DNA of 64,000 bases from Fibrobacter sp. (GCA_024398875.1 JAKSIJ010000001.1:124001-188000); one strand, 5' to 3'. Counted from the stretch's first letter, positions 47,659 through 55,166 are shown. Numbers and translations: made by a program. Notes: generated from the sequence alone by a model not told the origin.

Positions 47659-47674
47659 GCCAAAATGGTTTGGC
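47659..47674. promoter_or_regulatory. Inverted repeat before the recombinase gene
   Basis: GCCAAA-ATGG-TTTGGC is a perfect inverted repeat with 6-base arms. It ends about 18 bases before the start codon of the recombinase, just upstream of its SD, so it could be an operator, an RNA hairpin or part of a recombination site. Confidence 0.3.
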
Positions 47675-47691
47675 TTAACAAGGAGATGATT

Positions 47692-48534
47692 ATGTTGTTT
47701 GTAGAAACCGCTGTAAAATACCTGCATGAAAATTCCGAGGAGCTTGCGCCTCTCACCCTCAAAACCTATCACTGGAACATCCACAAGGTTCTCAAATTTG
47801 CTCCCAATTTACAGTGCGAAGACTTGACCGCAGATTTTGTCCGTAGGTATCGCAGCCACTTGATTGAGTGCGGCAACAAGGAAAACACCATCAACAAAGC
47901 GCTGACGGTGCTCCGCATTTTTTGCAAGAAATTTCACGAAGACGGGATTATCCCTTCCAACCCCTTTGAAAAAATCAAAATCCACCGTGTCTACACCACC
48001 CGCGGGTTCCTCACCATCAAGGAGCTCAGGCTCCTATACTTCCTATTCCTGGACAATGGAAGCGTCCTCACCCATGGCGAACAGGAAACCCTCCGCACCT
48101 TCCTCTTTTCCTGCTTTACCGGGCTACGCTACAGCGATTTGAAAAGTCTAACTCCCAACGAGATTTTTGATTACAAGATTCGTAAGAAAACCCACAAAAC
48201 CGGGGAACTGGTCTACATTCCCATACCGGCCCAGGCAAGGCTTCTCATCAACCAGAAAGGCTGCGCAAAAGACGGTCCCATTTTCAAGGTGACCAACAAC
48301 TCCTACTTCAACAAGTGCCTCCGCAAAGCCGCCAAAAAGCTGGGGTTCCACAAGCACCTCCATTGCCATTTGGCTAGGCACACCTTTGCCACCACCTGCA
48401 TCACGCTCGGCATCCCCCTCCCCGCCACCAGCAAGCTCCTCGGGCACCGCAACCTGGACACCACCCTGATTTACGCCAAATATGTGGACACTTTTTTGGA
48501 CAAGGAGATGACAAAATTCAATCGGTTGCGGTAA
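47692..48534 (+). CDS. Tyrosine recombinase (integrase)
   Basis: A protein of 280 residues with an N-terminal SAM-like core-binding domain and a catalytic domain that keeps every key residue: R146 in TGLRYSDL, H226 and R229 in HLARH, H252 in LGHRNL and Y261 in LIYAKY. The start is ATG 47692 because AAGGAG lies 6 bases upstream; an earlier in-frame ATG abuts the SD. It resembles the Bacteroides-type recombinases found near capsule loci. It could invert promoters in the glycan locus or be left over from an integrated element. No att sites were identified. Confidence 0.88.
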   Translation: MLFVETAVKYLHENSEELAPLTLKTYHWNIHKVLKFAPNLQCEDLTADFVRRYRSHLIECGNKENTINKALTVLRIFCKKFHEDGIIPSNPFEKIKIHRVYTTRGFLTIKELRLLYFLFLDNGSVLTHGEQETLRTFLFSCFTGLRYSDLKSLTPNEIFDYKIRKKTHKTGELVYIPIPAQARLLINQKGCAKDGPIFKVTNNSYFNKCLRKAAKKLGFHKHLHCHLARHTFATTCITLGIPLPATSKLLGHRNLDTTLIYAKYVDTFLDKEMTKFNRLR

Positions 48535-49527: not shown

Positions 49528-50376
49528 ATGGCAGAAAAGTGGACCACCGTCATCAAGCCGAAATCTAGCCTCCTGAGCGTGGACTTCGGGGAAATCTGGC
49601 AGTACCGTGATTTGTACCGCATGTTCGTAAAGCGCGACATCGTCACCTGGTACAAACAAACTATCCTCGGCCCCCTGTGGTTCTTTATCCAGCCCATCAT
49701 GACCACCATCATGTTCATGGTGGTGTTCGGTGGCATTGCGGGCATCAGCACCGACGGGCTCCCGCAACCGCTGTTCTATTTGGCGGGCATCTGCCTGTGG
49801 ACCTATTTTTCGGAATGCCTGAACCAAACCAGCAAAACTTTCATCGACAACGCGAATGTTTTCGGGAAGGTGTACTTTCCGCGGCTGGTGGTGCCCATGG
49901 CGACGGTCACCAGCAACCTGGTAAGGCTCGCCATACAACTGGGGCTGTTCCTCATCGTGTTCGCCTACTACATGATTTTCACCGATGCGCCGCTGCACCC
50001 GAGCCTCTACGTGCTCCTCACGCCAGTGCTCATCCTGATGCTCGCGGGCCTCGCCCTCGGTTTTGGCATCCTCTTCAGCAGCCTCACCACCAAATACCGC
50101 GACCTGACCTTCCTCCTCACCTTCATAGTGCAGCTGTGGATGTACGCGACACCCGTGATTTACCCGCTATCGACCATCGAGAACCCAAAACTCAAATTCA
50201 TGATGCAACTGAACCCCATCACCAGCATCGTCGAGACGTTCAAGTTCGCAATGCTAGGGGTTGGCGAGTTCAGCTGGGCAGCCCTCGGCTACAGCGCAGG
50301 CTTCATGGCAGTGATTCTCGCCCTCGGCATCATCGTGTTCAACCGCATCCAAAAAACCTTCATGGATACGGTGTAA
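49528..50376 (+). CDS. wzm: Polysaccharide ABC exporter permease (Wzm)
   Basis: A protein of 282 residues of the ABC-2 permease family with six membrane segments. The N-terminal amphipathic region includes IWQYRDLYRMFVKRDIVTWY, followed by QTILGPLWFFIQPIMTTIMF, a typical Wzm/TagG start. It pairs with the Wzt ATPase to move lipid-linked O-antigen or capsule across the inner membrane. Its partner gene is 6.6 kb downstream instead of adjacent, because of an inserted block. Its 3' end overlaps the convergent hipA gene by 17 bases. Confidence 0.92.
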   Translation: MAEKWTTVIKPKSSLLSVDFGEIWQYRDLYRMFVKRDIVTWYKQTILGPLWFFIQPIMTTIMFMVVFGGIAGISTDGLPQPLFYLAGICLWTYFSECLNQTSKTFIDNANVFGKVYFPRLVVPMATVTSNLVRLAIQLGLFLIVFAYYMIFTDAPLHPSLYVLLTPVLILMLAGLALGFGILFSSLTTKYRDLTFLLTFIVQLWMYATPVIYPLSTIENPKLKFMMQLNPITSIVETFKFAMLGVGEFSWAALGYSAGFMAVILALGIIVFNRIQKTFMDTV

Positions 50377-51460
50377 TTTTCTTAACGGAATCCAAAATTT
50401 TCACACAAGTAGCCTTTTGCAAGCCACAATAATTGGCAACCGCAAGCATATCGTCTTCTGAAGGATTCCCATTTCCGTTCACAGTCATTTCATGTTCTGC
50501 CTTATCAACAGTCTTCGTTATATCATAGGCGGGAGACAATTTGTAGGAACGAGCAGACTCATCATAAAGGAACGCAAAATTCTTTCCGTGATCATCTTTA
50601 TTTCCGTAGAAAACATTAAAAGCCATTCTACGAAATGCCTCATACATGTCAGACTGATCTTGGCATATTTTCTGCACAACCTGAAATAAATGACTGTAAT
50701 CTAAATTCGGAATTCGATGGGAGGTTTCAAGCATGGATGACAAAGAAACCATGTGAATTCTATTCGCCCCCTCTCGGTCAAAACGCTTTGCGCCAAAAAA
50801 TCCCCCATATTTCTTTGACAGGAAAAGTTTGAACTCATTCACATTTATGCCGGCATCTCGAGCCAACTTATTGGCTTCAAATTCCCTTTTCCCAGTATTC
50901 CTTGAATCATGAGAACATGGGAATTTTACAATCCAGCAATCTTCGCCCACCTTAATATGAGCCTTTGGCCTTGCACCACCACTTGAACCACCTAAGCGAT
51001 AGACTTCGTCTAGATTGACATTTTCCATTTCATCATTCCAAATCTTATCGGCTTCCGCGGCAAGCATTTCAAGATTAAAGCGTTCCGGTGTTGACATTTC
51101 CGAAACACTAGGCTCATACTGCAACCCGCCCATACCATAATCGTTTACCAAAGCGAGTCGGGTCAGTGGAGAAACGCGTTCTGCATTAATCCCCTGTCGA
51201 GCAAGCATCCTGCGAAAAAGAAGTTCGCCCCAGCCATCTGGCAAAGAATCTGCAAACACCCCGTAAAGGCCGTTAAACATTTTCTTATGATTAACAAAAA
51301 CCTTATTCGTCAACGGAAGAGAAAATGGAGATAAGGGGAAGCCATCTTTCAGCCACACCTCGTCATACTGAAAACCAATTTCACCTGACAAGTCAGCCAA
51401 ATAGCCAACAACTCTCCCGTTGTATTTTACCGTCAGTTTTTTTACAACAGTCAGTTCCAT
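50360..51460 (-). CDS. hipA: HipA-family serine/threonine kinase toxin
   Basis: A protein of 366 residues. The N-subdomain (VKYNGRVVGYLADLSGEIGF ... GLYGVFADSLPDGWGELL) is followed by the phosphate-binding loop GGSSGGARPKA, the lysine strand WIVKFPC, the catalytic NKDDHGKNFAFL (about 287-298) and LSPAYDI. HipA kinases phosphorylate aminoacyl-tRNA synthetases and induce dormancy. All kinase motifs are present, so it looks active. hipB lies upstream and overlaps by one base (TAATG). The gene converges on wzm, which it overlaps by 17 bases. Confidence 0.92.
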   Translation of the reverse strand: MELTVVKKLTVKYNGRVVGYLADLSGEIGFQYDEVWLKDGFPLSPFSLPLTNKVFVNHKKMFNGLYGVFADSLPDGWGELLFRRMLARQGINAERVSPLTRLALVNDYGMGGLQYEPSVSEMSTPERFNLEMLAAEADKIWNDEMENVNLDEVYRLGGSSGGARPKAHIKVGEDCWIVKFPCSHDSRNTGKREFEANKLARDAGINVNEFKLFLSKKYGGFFGAKRFDREGANRIHMVSLSSMLETSHRIPNLDYSHLFQVVQKICQDQSDMYEAFRRMAFNVFYGNKDDHGKNFAFLYDESARSYKLSPAYDITKTVDKAEHEMTVNGNGNPSEDDMLAVANYCGLQKATCVKILDSVKKITPYP

Positions 51461-51744
51461 TATAAGTCCTTCAAATTGGTAACTGCGGGCAACCTAAAAA
51501 GCATATTAAAATCCTCTAGGCAATCTAAAGCCATTGCAATTTTTAGCAAAGACTGCAAAGATATTTCACCCAGCAGTTCAAATCGCCGAACAGAGGCGTA
51601 ACTAACCCCCGATCGGGAAGCTAAATCCTTCTGGGTAATATTCATAGACTGTCTACGAGCCCTCATTCGCGCCACAAGAGCCTCGGTTGCCGCAGGAATC
51701 GTCAAGGAATCTACAAAATCGCCAATATCAAATCTCGTTTTCAT
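51460..51744 (-). CDS. hipB: HipB-like XRE-family antitoxin
   Basis: A protein of 94 residues with an XRE helix-turn-helix: RRQSMNITQKDLASRSGVSY and VRRFELLGEISLQSLLKIA. It should bind the HipA kinase and repress the operon. A full promoter (TTGAAT, 17 bp, TATATT) lies directly before the ATG, with 8 bases between the -10 and the start, so the message is probably leaderless. A candidate operator lies at 51788-51803. Confidence 0.9.
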   Translation of the reverse strand: MKTRFDIGDFVDSLTIPAATEALVARMRARRQSMNITQKDLASRSGVSYASVRRFELLGEISLQSLLKIAMALDCLEDFNMLFRLPAVTNLKDL

Positions 51745-51823: not shown

Positions 51824-52828
51824 TCAATCACCCAGCACCTCCTCAATCAACTCGTGGTAGACTTCGGGATATTCCACCTGATCCATCGTTGTCACGCGCT
51901 TTCCCGCATCTTTTGAAGAAGCACCGCAATGGAACATTTTCTCATGGTCTGTTTTGTAATCCAGCACGATGTAACGGTCATGGAATATACCGCCTGCAGG
52001 CCTCCGCTCAATATCCACATCCGGCCTAGCGGCTTTAAAGTCAGCAATCATCGCGGGCGTCAACGCACAGCCATTCCGCTGGTCGCTAAAAATCGTAACC
52101 TTAACATTCTGTGCGACACCCCGCAACAGGTCCAAAGTCTTTACGCCAACAAAGTCATCAAACACGAAAATTGACTTCTGAGCCATACCGTAAATCTGCG
52201 AGTTGGCAACATCTGCTTCAAGCTTTTGGCCGTTCAAAATCAAGTGATGCTTGTAGGTGGACGGATCGTGGAAAAATTCCATGACCTTGCCCAAGGATTC
52301 CTGAGTTTTCTGAGCCTCACCTTCCAAACGAGACACATCGGAGCGAATTTCGGAAATTTCGTGGGAATGCTGAGCCGTAAGGGTTGCTATTTGGACACAG
52401 TTTGCACAACCCAGCAACTGCTGATTTTCGGAGGCGATATAGTCCTTCATGTCCTTGAAAAGACGGACGATAGCAATGCTTTGAGCGACTGCCAAGGGCC
52501 CTTTAAGAACCGACATGAGCATATAAATGCCTTGCTCGGTGAATGCAAAAGGCATTTTTCGAACACCACCCCAACTTGAAGTCAAATTTTTTGACTTCAA
52601 GTTGACATACTCTTCATCATTTAGCTGAAACCGAAAATCCCCCGGGAATTTTTCAGCATTGTTCTTAACTTGCTGATTAAAAGCCTTGACCGAATACCCA
52701 TAAATTTCCGCCAGATCGGCATCGAGCATCACCTTTACACCACGGATGGTGTAAACCTTGCTCTTCAGCAAATTCTCGTCGATAAGGACGATTTCTTTTC
52801 CCCCAACGGGAACACCTTTCCTCTTCAT
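51824..52828 (-). CDS. ORF6N-domain protein, copy 1
   Basis: A protein of 334 residues. SD AAGGAG lies 6 bases before ATG 52828. The N-terminal ORF6N domain (VYTIRGVKVMLDADLAEIYG) is a putative DNA-binding domain known from phage and island proteins. A variable segment (about 45-105) contains the block KSKNLTSSWGGVRKMPFAF. A coiled region with CANCVQIATL follows. The C-terminal part has FHDRYIVLD and HCGASSKDAGK, resembling a degenerate phospholipase D-like (HKD) motif. It shares near-identical flanks with copies 2 and 3. Function is unknown; a sequence-specific DNA-binding or stress-response factor is possible. Confidence 0.8.
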   Translation of the reverse strand: MKRKGVPVGGKEIVLIDENLLKSKVYTIRGVKVMLDADLAEIYGYSVKAFNQQVKNNAEKFPGDFRFQLNDEEYVNLKSKNLTSSWGGVRKMPFAFTEQGIYMLMSVLKGPLAVAQSIAIVRLFKDMKDYIASENQQLLGCANCVQIATLTAQHSHEISEIRSDVSRLEGEAQKTQESLGKVMEFFHDPSTYKHHLILNGQKLEADVANSQIYGMAQKSIFVFDDFVGVKTLDLLRGVAQNVKVTIFSDQRNGCALTPAMIADFKAARPDVDIERRPAGGIFHDRYIVLDYKTDHEKMFHCGASSKDAGKRVTTMDQVEYPEVYHELIEEVLGD

Positions 52829-52998
52829 TTCAACTCCTTTTGCGTACAAACACCGGCGCACGACCACGCAAATAACAATTTTTAAGGCACGGACAAATAT
52901 AAATCGCTTCGATTGTCAGAAGATGTCATTTTGAACATTTTTTGAATTTTGGATGGTAGGCGTGGCACTCAAGATGGCACTCAAGATGGCACTCAAGG
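52829..52998. repeat. Duplicated upstream region of ORF6N copy 1
   Basis: About 110 bases (52829-52940) are nearly identical to 54025-54135, including the SD and an AT-rich -10-like TATATT. Then come three units of TGGCACTCAAGA (52973-53008), which run into the 3' end of copy 2. Confidence 0.75.
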
Positions 52999-54024
52999 CT
53001 ATACAGGCAACTGCAGCACCTTCTCAATCAACTCGTGGTAGACTTCAGGATATTCCACCAAATCCATCGTTGTCACTCTCTTCCCGGCGTCCTTACTGGA
53101 GGCACCGCAATGGAACATTTTCTCATGGTCTGTTTTGTAATCCAGCACGATGTAACGGTCATGGAATATACCGCCTGCAGGCCTCCGCTCAATATCCACA
53201 TCCGGCCTAGCGGCTTTAAAGTCAGCAATCATCGCGGGCGTCAACGCACAGCCATTCCGCTGGTCGCTAAAAATCGTAACCTTAACATTCTGTGCGACAC
53301 CCCGCAACAGGTCCAAAGTCTTTACGCCAACAAAGTCATCAAACACGAAAATTGACTTCTGAGCCATACCGTAAATCTGCGAGTTGGCAACATCTGCTTC
53401 AAGCTTTTGGCCGTTCAAAATCAAGTGATGCTTGTAGGTGGACGGATCGTGGAAAAATTCCATGACCTTGCCCAAGGATTCCTGAGTTTTCTGAGCCTCA
53501 CCTTCCAAACGAGACACATCGGAGCGAATTTCGGAAATTTCGTGGGAATGCTGAGCCGTAAGGGTTGCTATTTGGACACAGTTTGCACAACCCAGCAACT
53601 GCTGATTTTCAGAGGCGATATAGTCCTTCATGTCCTTGAAAAGACGGATGATTGCTTTACTTTGTAAAGTTGCAAGACTACCTCTAAGAACAGTCATGAG
53701 CATATAAATACCCTGTTCAGTAAAGACAAAAGGAAGTTTTCTTGTCCCGCCCCAACTTGATGTCCGATTTTTGGACATCAAGTTCATGTTTTTTATCGAA
53801 GAATACTCACTTTCAGTCAGTTGAAATCGAAAATCGGAATCAAATTTTTCAATGTTATTTTTTACTTGCTCATTGAATTTTCGAGTACTATACCCATAAA
53901 TTTCCGCCAGATCGGCATCGAGCATCACCTTCACATCGCGGATGGTGTAAACCTTGCTCTTCAGCAAATTCTCATCAATAAGGACGATTTCTTTTCCCCC
54001 AACGGGAACACCTTTCCTCTTCAT
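52999..54024 (-). CDS. ORF6N-domain protein, copy 2
   Basis: A protein of 341 residues with the same plan as copy 1 and an SD AAGGAG before ATG 54024. The N-terminal about 45 residues and the region from about 130 to the end are nearly identical to copies 1 and 3. The middle segment is clearly different (EYSSIKNMNLMSKNRTSSW, then LPFVFTEQGIYMLMTVLRGS). The last residues are VLQLPV. The divergent part covers the end of the ORF6N region, which is likely to set target specificity, whereas the C-terminal PLD-like part is constant. It is probably transcribed from its own duplicated promoter. Confidence 0.8.
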   Translation of the reverse strand: MKRKGVPVGGKEIVLIDENLLKSKVYTIRDVKVMLDADLAEIYGYSTRKFNEQVKNNIEKFDSDFRFQLTESEYSSIKNMNLMSKNRTSSWGGTRKLPFVFTEQGIYMLMTVLRGSLATLQSKAIIRLFKDMKDYIASENQQLLGCANCVQIATLTAQHSHEISEIRSDVSRLEGEAQKTQESLGKVMEFFHDPSTYKHHLILNGQKLEADVANSQIYGMAQKSIFVFDDFVGVKTLDLLRGVAQNVKVTIFSDQRNGCALTPAMIADFKAARPDVDIERRPAGGIFHDRYIVLDYKTDHEKMFHCGASSKDAGKRVTTMDLVEYPEVYHELIEKVLQLPV

Positions 54025-54143
54025 TTCAACTCCTTTTGCGTACAAACACCGGCGCACGACCACGCAAATAACAATTTTTAAGGCACGGACAAATATAAAT
54101 CGCTTCGATTGTCAGAAGATGTCATTTTTGACATCGCTCAAGG

Positions 54144-55166
54144 TTAAACAGGCAACTCCAGCACCTTCTCAATCAACTCGTGGTAGACTTCGGGATATTC
54201 CACCTGATCCATCGTTGTCACGCGCTTTCCCGCATCTTTTGAAGAAGCACCGCAATGGAACATTTTCTCATGGTCTGTTTTGTAATCCAGCACGATGTAA
54301 CGGTCATGGAATATACCGCCTGCAGGCCTCCGCTCAATATCCACATCCGGCCTAGCGGCTTTAAAGTCAGCAATCATCGCGGGCGTCAACGCACAGCCAT
54401 TCCGCTGGTCGCTAAAAATCGTAACCTTAACATTCTGTGCGACACCCCGCAACAGGTCCAAAGTCTTTACGCCAACAAAGTCATCAAACACGAAAATTGA
54501 CTTCTGAGCCATACCGTAAATCTGCGAGTTGGCAACATCTGCTTCAAGCTTTTGGCCGTTCAAAATCAAGTGATGCTTGTAGGTGGACGGATCGTGGAAA
54601 AATTCCATGACCTTGCCCAAGGATTCCTGAGTTTTCTGAGCCTCACCTTCCAAACGAGACACATCGGAGCGAATTTCGGAAATTTCGTGGGAATGCTGAG
54701 CCGTAAGGGTTGCTATTTGGACACAGTTTGCACAACCCAGCAACTGCTGATTTTCGGAGGCGATATAGTCCTTCATGTCCTTGAAAAGACGGACGATAGC
54801 AATGCTTTGAGCGACTGCCAAGGGCCCTTTAAGAACCGACATGAGCATATAAATGCCTTGTTCGGTAAACGCGTAAGGTAAATACTTGATATTATGCCCA
54901 CGTGAAATCTTCAAGGTCGTTTTTTCCGACCTTGAAAGCAATTCGGTTTCCTCTTTCGTCAACTGAAATCTAAAATCATCATCAAAGCGTTCAATATTGG
55001 CTTTAACCTGCTCATTGAAACGCTTGGTACTATACCCATAAATTTCCGCCAGATCGGCATCGAGCATCACCTTCACACCGCGGATGGTGTAAACCTTGCT
55101 CTTCAGCAAATTCTCGTCGATAAGGGTAATCTCACTCCCCACAACGGGGGCATCTTTCTTCTTCAT
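54144..55166 (-). CDS. ORF6N-domain protein, copy 3
   Basis: A protein of 340 residues from ATG 55166, with AGAAGG upstream. The middle segment is unlike both others (ETELLSRSEKTTLKISRGHN), yet from FTEQGIYMLMSVLKGPLA onward it matches copy 1 almost base for base. The N-terminus starts MKKKDAPVVGSEITLIDENL and differs more from copies 1 and 2. The upstream region is not shared, so copy 3 may be the original and copies 1 and 2 later duplicates. It is divergent from the phosphoglycerol transferase gene. Confidence 0.8.
   Translation of the reverse strand: MKKKDAPVVGSEITLIDENLLKSKVYTIRGVKVMLDADLAEIYGYSTKRFNEQVKANIERFDDDFRFQLTKEETELLSRSEKTTLKISRGHNIKYLPYAFTEQGIYMLMSVLKGPLAVAQSIAIVRLFKDMKDYIASENQQLLGCANCVQIATLTAQHSHEISEIRSDVSRLEGEAQKTQESLGKVMEFFHDPSTYKHHLILNGQKLEADVANSQIYGMAQKSIFVFDDFVGVKTLDLLRGVAQNVKVTIFSDQRNGCALTPAMIADFKAARPDVDIERRPAGGIFHDRYIVLDYKTDHEKMFHCGASSKDAGKRVTTMDQVEYPEVYHELIEKVLELPV

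Follow-up and report, generated by a model that had tools for sequence, protein, structure and literature searches.

Each of three tandem ORF6N genes in a Fibrobacter genome carries a long palindrome of its own within the coding sequence, and the bases of this palindrome are predicted by the recognition helix that the same gene encodes. The genes c1 (51824-52831, 335 aa), c2 (52999-54027, 342 aa) and c3 (54144-55166, 340 aa) lie on the minus strand of the window, that is, of the whole 64-kb stretch of DNA that was analysed. Open reading frame and Pfam analysis identified c1 as a protein with an ORF6N domain of the helix-turn-helix (HTH) type and a PLD-like part, and c2 and c3 are its paralogs by open reading frame, Pfam and alignment evidence. 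We propose that such genes are self-addressed: an ORF6N dimer would read the palindrome residing in the same cassette, which would result in copy-specific autoregulation of a protein with a PLD-like effector. Taken as a whole, this reading seems to us rather probable.

The tandem copies repeat at spacings of 1181 and 1145 nt, which together with their level of identity is far beyond chance. A hipB-hipA-like pair (50360-51744, minus strand; open reading frame and Pfam evidence) is located directly downstream of c1, and a similar pair is also directly downstream of ORF6N copies in the related genome G009; the neighbours of c1-c3 consist of hipBA and polysaccharide genes. Two more close ORF6N paralogs are found on other contigs of the same genome.

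The ORF6N domain (PF10543) matches residues 24-108 of all three proteins with 104.6-108.8 bits at a gathering cut-off of 27.8 (E-values from 1e-30 to 1e-31). Pfam, AlphaFold and Foldseek place the ORF6N domain at the N-terminus and the PLD-superfamily fold at the C-terminus, with a helical region between them. The AlphaFold (AF2) model of c1 has a mean pLDDT of 74.5, and its ORF6N part includes a helix-turn-helix formed by H37-44 and H48-57. The latter is the predicted recognition helix, encoded on the minus strand by codons 48-57 at 52661-52690 in c1 and, by alignment with c1, at 53857-53886 in c2 and 54996-55025 in c3. The PLD-superfamily domain of c1 (residues ~196-333; 51833-52246, minus strand) was recognized by Foldseek comparison with the PDB; its best match is phospholipase D 7e0m (E = 8.5e-4, probability 1.00, low TM-score), and other matches are Tdp1, NucT and FAM83. 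The PLD-like motif H284-x-R286-x4-D291 is invariant in 40 homologs, with arginine replacing the lysine of the catalytic HxK(x4)D motif. A sequence search for a solved ORF6N structure found none.

The earlier note had described the three genes as a mosaic of constant flanks and divergent middles, and the alignment bears this out. Codons 1-45 are 87-96% identical among the copies, as expected from the claimed similarity of 5' starts, and codons 46-99 are only 50-61% identical, with the left edge of the divergent middle at codon 45/46 (52694 in c1). The near-identical 3' parts contain a constant block of 509 nt, the same in all copies (51921-52429 in c1, 53102-53610 in c2 and 54247-54755 in c3, minus strand). 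Two sets of markers inside the common 3' part (52226, 53407 and 54552; 51929, 53110 and 54255) are separated by a constant 297 nt, and thus there are no indels between them. As noted earlier, c1 and c3 match further into the middle than c2: they are identical over 693 nt from c1 position 52534 to 51842, and c2 joins them at 52467/52429, so the right-hand junctions differ. Mapping of breakpoints showed sharp edges on both sides of the middle, and a smooth divergence profile across the copies was rejected. Beyond these edges, c1 and c2 have ~100 nt of upstream flank in common (98% identity), where c3 diverges (45%), and c2 diverges again near the stop codon, its last ~35 codons being 80% identical.

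The main feature overlooked in that description is that each divergent middle holds a different long palindrome. The palindrome of c1, CAACTTGAAGTCAAA-aaa-TTTGACTTCAAGTTG, has 15-bp arms and is located at 52572-52604 within the ORF6N coding region. Those of c2 (AACTTGATGTCC-aaaaatc-GGACATCAAGTT, 12-bp arms, 53754-53784) and c3 (TTCAAGGTCG-gaaaaaa-CGACCTTGAA, 10-bp arms, 54910-54936) also lie in the divergent middle; all three are given without strand. They lie ~230-260 nt into the gene, ~70-80 nt downstream of the helix. Only four inverted repeats with perfect arms of at least 10 bp and a loop of at most 9 are present in the 64-kb window, and three of them are these palindromes. In the AF2 model of c1, the stretch encoded by the palindrome is a loop with pLDDT below 50, predicted to be disordered, so this sequence could be free to serve as a DNA site.

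Palindromes at the same position, with arms that vary in sequence and compensate each other, were found in the other members of the genus that we examined. Of 149 non-redundant ORF6N genes, taken from Fibrobacter, Bacteroidota, Firmicutes, Spirochaetes, an archaeal MAG and viral contigs, nearly all have them too. The median length of the longest perfect arm is 12 bp, compared to 5.4 bp in synonymous-codon resamples, and some ORF6N genes have two to four palindrome units. In the open-licence literature we found neither a published description of embedded palindromes in these genes nor a description of what ORF6N binds.

The core of the palindrome follows the helix. In the following, GT-N3N4-N5-A denotes the half-site and (X-3)-F-N-X-Q-V-K-Z-N the helix. 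All 109 single-site ORF6N genes obey the code for N3N4: glutamine at X with A, S or V at X-3 corresponds to CA (half-site GTCA, 43/43), arginine at X to GC (GTGC, 30/30), glutamate at X to CG when R is at X-3 (GTCG, 29/29) and to CC when K is at X-3 (GTCC, 5/5), and lysine at X to TC (2/2). The base N5 depends on Z: asparagine corresponds to A, arginine to C (34 of 36), and Y, C, T or A to G. Hence the predicted half-sites are GTCAA for c1 (helix AFNQQVKNN; X=Q, Z=N), GTCCA for c2 (KFNEQVKNN; X-3=K, X=E) and GTCGG for c3 (RFNEQVKAN; X-3=R, X=E, Z=A). The pairings Gln-A and Arg-G that occur in the code are chemically usual ones between residues and bases.

These counts were obtained with a strict finder that requires the half-site T as well as symmetry and takes no account of the helix. 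It missed imperfect palindromes in 22 of the 149 genes (~15%), the cores of which agree with the code by eye. With an automatic relaxed finder taking one best window per gene, 136/149 and 35/36 agree with the code.

In a mutual-information scan over all domain columns, with the palindrome-coded columns masked, position X accounts for 1.59 of the 1.85 bits of N3N4 and X-3 for 1.28, and all other columns for at most 0.20. In the AF2 model X-3, X and Z occupy positions i, i+3 and i+7 of the predicted recognition helix, and the corresponding residues of c1 (A50, Q53 and N57) are on one helix face. The code, fixed beforehand, was applied to a hold-out set of further genes, drawn from plasmids, viral contigs and additional genomes, some of these genes being close to the training set. 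Where a site could be detected and the helix parsed, it was correct for N3N4 in 28/28 genes (mean 13.4 and maximum 23 in 20,000 shuffles) and for N5 in 26/26. Shared descent was controlled on a tree of the 109 sequences built without the helix and palindrome columns, on which X changes at least 43 times. All independent contrasts for X agree with the code (Q-CA 15/15, R-GC 9/9, E-CG/CC 9/9); the contrast for N5 and Z is too small to be significant by itself. The code is also factorial, X and Z acting largely independently, which is not expected from common descent of a few cassettes. The predicted helix-to-site code is thus near-deterministic and survives both the tree control and the hold-out. 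Since the rule holds in ORF6N genes of many phyla, each protein seems to read a site in the very gene that encodes it.

The c1 and c2 sites are specific to their genes. In an exact-core pattern search of the 2.78-Mb genome, the core of c1, GTCAAAnnnTTTGAC, occurs only once, inside its own gene, and the same holds for the core of c2. Outside ORF6N coding regions only two such palindromes were found in ~1.1 Mb of sequence, a figure that includes overlapping loci, and both are just downstream of ORF6N-PLD genes. Among genes with a second, non-cognate site, a matching reader is encoded in the same genome in only ~3 of 9 cases. Cross-regulation by family members is not supported as the reason for the extra sites, and a simple regulatory network thus fails to explain them. 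Nor do the copies within one genome always differ in their cores, as G001 has four CAA genes; among the 17 tandem sets listed, some of which are windows on one array, only 2 are single-class, and this class diversity is suggestive only.

Reader and site seem to move together on a constant backbone. Among 47 members of the genus, identity in the middle (codons 73-113) and identity in the C-terminus are uncorrelated (Spearman 0.02), one middle variant is found on different backbones, and a tree of the C-terminal part requires 17-20 or more switches of the specificity class. A different picture emerges from the nearest strain, a MAG (L113), in which all three middles are 100% identical to those of c1-c3 and hipBA is 99.7% identical to that of the window. 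The constant part of the window and of L113 is 99.4-100% identical between paralogs and 96.4% between orthologs, and the short stretch that follows the middle (codons 118-122) is of the c2 type in every copy of L113 and, in the window, in c2 alone. Because the middles are identical and the constant part is homogenised in each strain, the recent process is probably gene conversion around stable cassettes. This looks like concerted evolution, in which conversion evens out the constant part while the cassettes stay distinct; the exchange of cassettes would be older or rarer.

The earlier suggestion that recombination keeps the effector and swaps the reader therefore holds in part. The middle behaves as an exchangeable module with the DNA-recognition helix next to a constant PLD-like C-terminal part, and across the genus middles are decoupled from backbones; it fits the most recent events less well, since comparison with the nearest strain points to conversion of the constant part around unchanged middles. 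The proposed analogy with type I restriction S subunits, in which DNA-recognition parts are exchanged modularly on a constant backbone, applies to the principle of effector kept and reader swapped. It does not extend to the cassette, which here also holds the cognate palindrome of the reader; we know of no S subunit carrying its target inside the coding sequence of the recognition domain. Unlike S subunits, c1-c3 combine ORF6N with a PLD-like domain and have no R or M partner.

In the mechanism that we propose, the ORF6N coding region of each self-addressed gene holds both the HTH recognition helix and the matching palindromic site, and the two would travel as one cassette on the constant PLD-like effector backbone, so that a single swap would bring in a new specificity along with the site that goes with it. 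An ORF6N dimer would bind the palindrome in double-stranded DNA, and the helix-to-site code argues strongly for binding by each protein to its own palindrome. With less certainty, the bound dimer could act as a transcription roadblock in the gene, each copy repressing only itself, which would amount to copy-specific autoregulation; we infer this use of the palindrome rather than another one. Also with less certainty, the PLD-like domain may serve as effector in what would be a candidate phage-defence protein. Individual cases are known in which a DNA-binding protein has its site in coding sequence, namely the intragenic operators of autoregulated repressors. The c1 and c2 sites, each found once in 2.78 Mb and predicted to be bound, resemble them in being specific to their own gene, whereas the ORF6N site is family-wide and belongs to a readable and swappable code within the same cassette. 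Rickettsia palindromic elements are mobile repeats of ~100-150 bp inside coding regions of unrelated genes; in contrast, the ORF6N palindromes occupy one fixed position in homologous domains and their arms covary with the protein.

The palindrome is probably a self-addressed operator, and the main rival is self-immunity of the type described for BstA/aba. BstA is a prophage defence protein with cognate self-immunity and an N-terminal KilA-N-like domain (Owen et al. 2021, PMC8585504). The aba element is a short DNA element in bstA, cognate to the protein variant, and the variants are not cross-immune (PMC8585504). By analogy, ORF6N-PLD proteins would attack foreign replicating DNA, and the palindrome in their own gene would switch the protein off on the carrier element. 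Here, too, an own-gene DNA element is cognate to the encoded variant, as judged from sequence covariation only. Over its full length (residues 13-332, E = 9.4e-103) c1 matches PDC-S05 of PADLOC, a candidate single-gene defence family, in keeping with this rival, and the extra non-cognate sites could provide immunity to other variants. PDC-S05 has been reported to be abundant in rumen genomes (PMC13356809), and the literature passages that mention the family give neither a mechanism nor an embedded palindrome. However, aba, located where bstA begins, is a 63-bp element with terminal direct repeats of CCCGCC and not a palindrome, whereas the ORF6N palindrome is located ~230-260 nt into the gene. 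No helix-to-base code is described for BstA, in contrast to the ORF6N/KilA-N feature, which spans many phyla and is known from sequence. Moreover, palindrome and code are likewise seen with short ORF6N proteins, for example L083 with an ORF of 191 aa, in which little room remains for an effector domain. We consider self-immunity unlikely as the function of the palindromes, although it deserves to be kept in mind.

Two further explanations are very improbable. According to the first of them, the palindromes are mRNA hairpins for translation control or processing, and strong hairpins are indeed predicted for the three copies (-29.1, -18.0 and -16.6 kcal/mol; z-scores of -8.7, -5.2 and -3.2). However, the arms contain few of the G-T mismatches that an RNA stem would tolerate (4, compared to 20 A-C), which disfavours a hairpin, the residues that the code ties to the bases belong to a DNA-type recognition helix, and L154 has its palindrome, predicted core included, outside the gene, 8 bp after the stop codon. 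The other explanation, to which we give equally little credence, is that the palindromes owe their retention to a role in cassette exchange, which they would drive as hotspots of recombination or breakage. They do reside inside the exchanged middle, and both gene conversion and decoupling of middles from backbones are seen, but a hotspot predicts neither the helix-to-base code nor the hold-out success, and the observed breakpoints are ~40-140 nt away from the palindromes.

The least credible explanation is that there is no DNA site at all, the protein motif LxSKxxTS, which belongs to the ORF6N domain, mimicking a palindrome and the helix correlation reflecting the descent of cassettes that move as units; yet synonymous resampling yields arms of 5.4 bp and not 12, every tree contrast for X agrees, the palindrome and the code persist in a different coding register (L112, L218) or with the motif lost or the register different (L242, L264, L274, L278, L279 and L292, plasmid and viral genes among them), and one site lies past the stop codon. 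Synonymous resampling, shifted registers and out-of-gene sites rule out both chance and the protein motif as the origin of the palindromes.

Under the self-addressed operator reading, the embedded palindrome is a predicted DNA target for each ORF6N gene, obtained from its own sequence. If right, this reading shows how a DNA-binding protein could change specificity without losing self-recognition, reader and site moving together, and it would put many orthogonal protein-site pairs on offer. One exchange would be enough to create mutually blind specificities, and for many uncharacterised phage and bacterial proteins the specificity could be read directly from the gene. It would also make the generality of the BstA/aba self-immunity logic in the KilA-N/ORF6N superfamily testable, and it warns that conserved protein-family "motifs" can be DNA sites in disguise.

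We speculate that a new class of genes, encoding regulators or defence proteins, extends across the ORF6N/KilA-N superfamily, in which the coding sequence of the DNA-binding domain holds a unique palindromic address for the protein itself, and reader and address recombine as one cassette. This generalisation is tentative, a serious possibility that we would not yet call probable. KilA-N genes, taken as a negative control for embedded palindromes, proved positive; Phage_pRha, also sought as a control, was not found in the phylum. In all 53 non-redundant KilA-N genes, a set chosen by a protein pattern (motif match), a palindrome is centred at one fixed codon position, and its arms agree at 9-12 of 12 positions. 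The bases of this palindrome vary together with residues in the preceding helix; for example, K-N before Trp is accompanied by GGT in 13/13 genes. One such KilA-N gene is present in the genome of c1-c3 itself, where it adjoins another ORF6N paralog.

Some ORF6N genes (loci L055, L040, L065, L033, L101, L098, L142 and L145) contain two to four in-frame palindromes. One palindrome per gene fits the gene's own helix; the remaining ones fit other specificity classes, and for most of these the same genome encodes no reader with the corresponding helix. The ORF6N gene of locus L269, with leucine as the specificity residue X, includes two units with a previously unseen core (GTTGC/GTTTC) and possibly represents a further specificity class. 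Palindromes of this family also occur shortly after the end of ORF6N-PLD genes, 8 bp past the stop codon in L154:2441, where the core is as predicted, and about 55 bp past it in L134:3494.

The KilA-N (PF04383) genes of loci L293–L318 and L342–L421 contain an embedded palindrome, TTAA-N6-GAATTC-N6'-TTAA, at a fixed codon position. Its arms covary with the helix encoded just before it. One of these KilA-N genes belongs to the own genome (G000:C88:26908-27300, locus L313).

The array is adjoined by a hipB-hipA-like pair (window 50360-51744) that is 99.7% identical to its counterpart in the nearest strain (L113). A tyrosine-recombinase-like integrase gene (47665-48534; PHROG integrase match) lies approximately 3–4 kb from the array among genes of a surface-polysaccharide cluster.

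A hipB-hipA-like pair also adjoins the ORF6N copies of the related genome G009, and a second hipBA pair is found between two ORF6N-PLD copies there (L043, 5817-10000). Both copies, located beside RNA-ligase-like gene fragments, have apparently lost their normal 5' ends, and one is broken near the 3' end. In the nearest strain, the c3 copy (L113:1-457) has an internal deletion that removed most of the C-terminal half; its helix and palindrome are retained.
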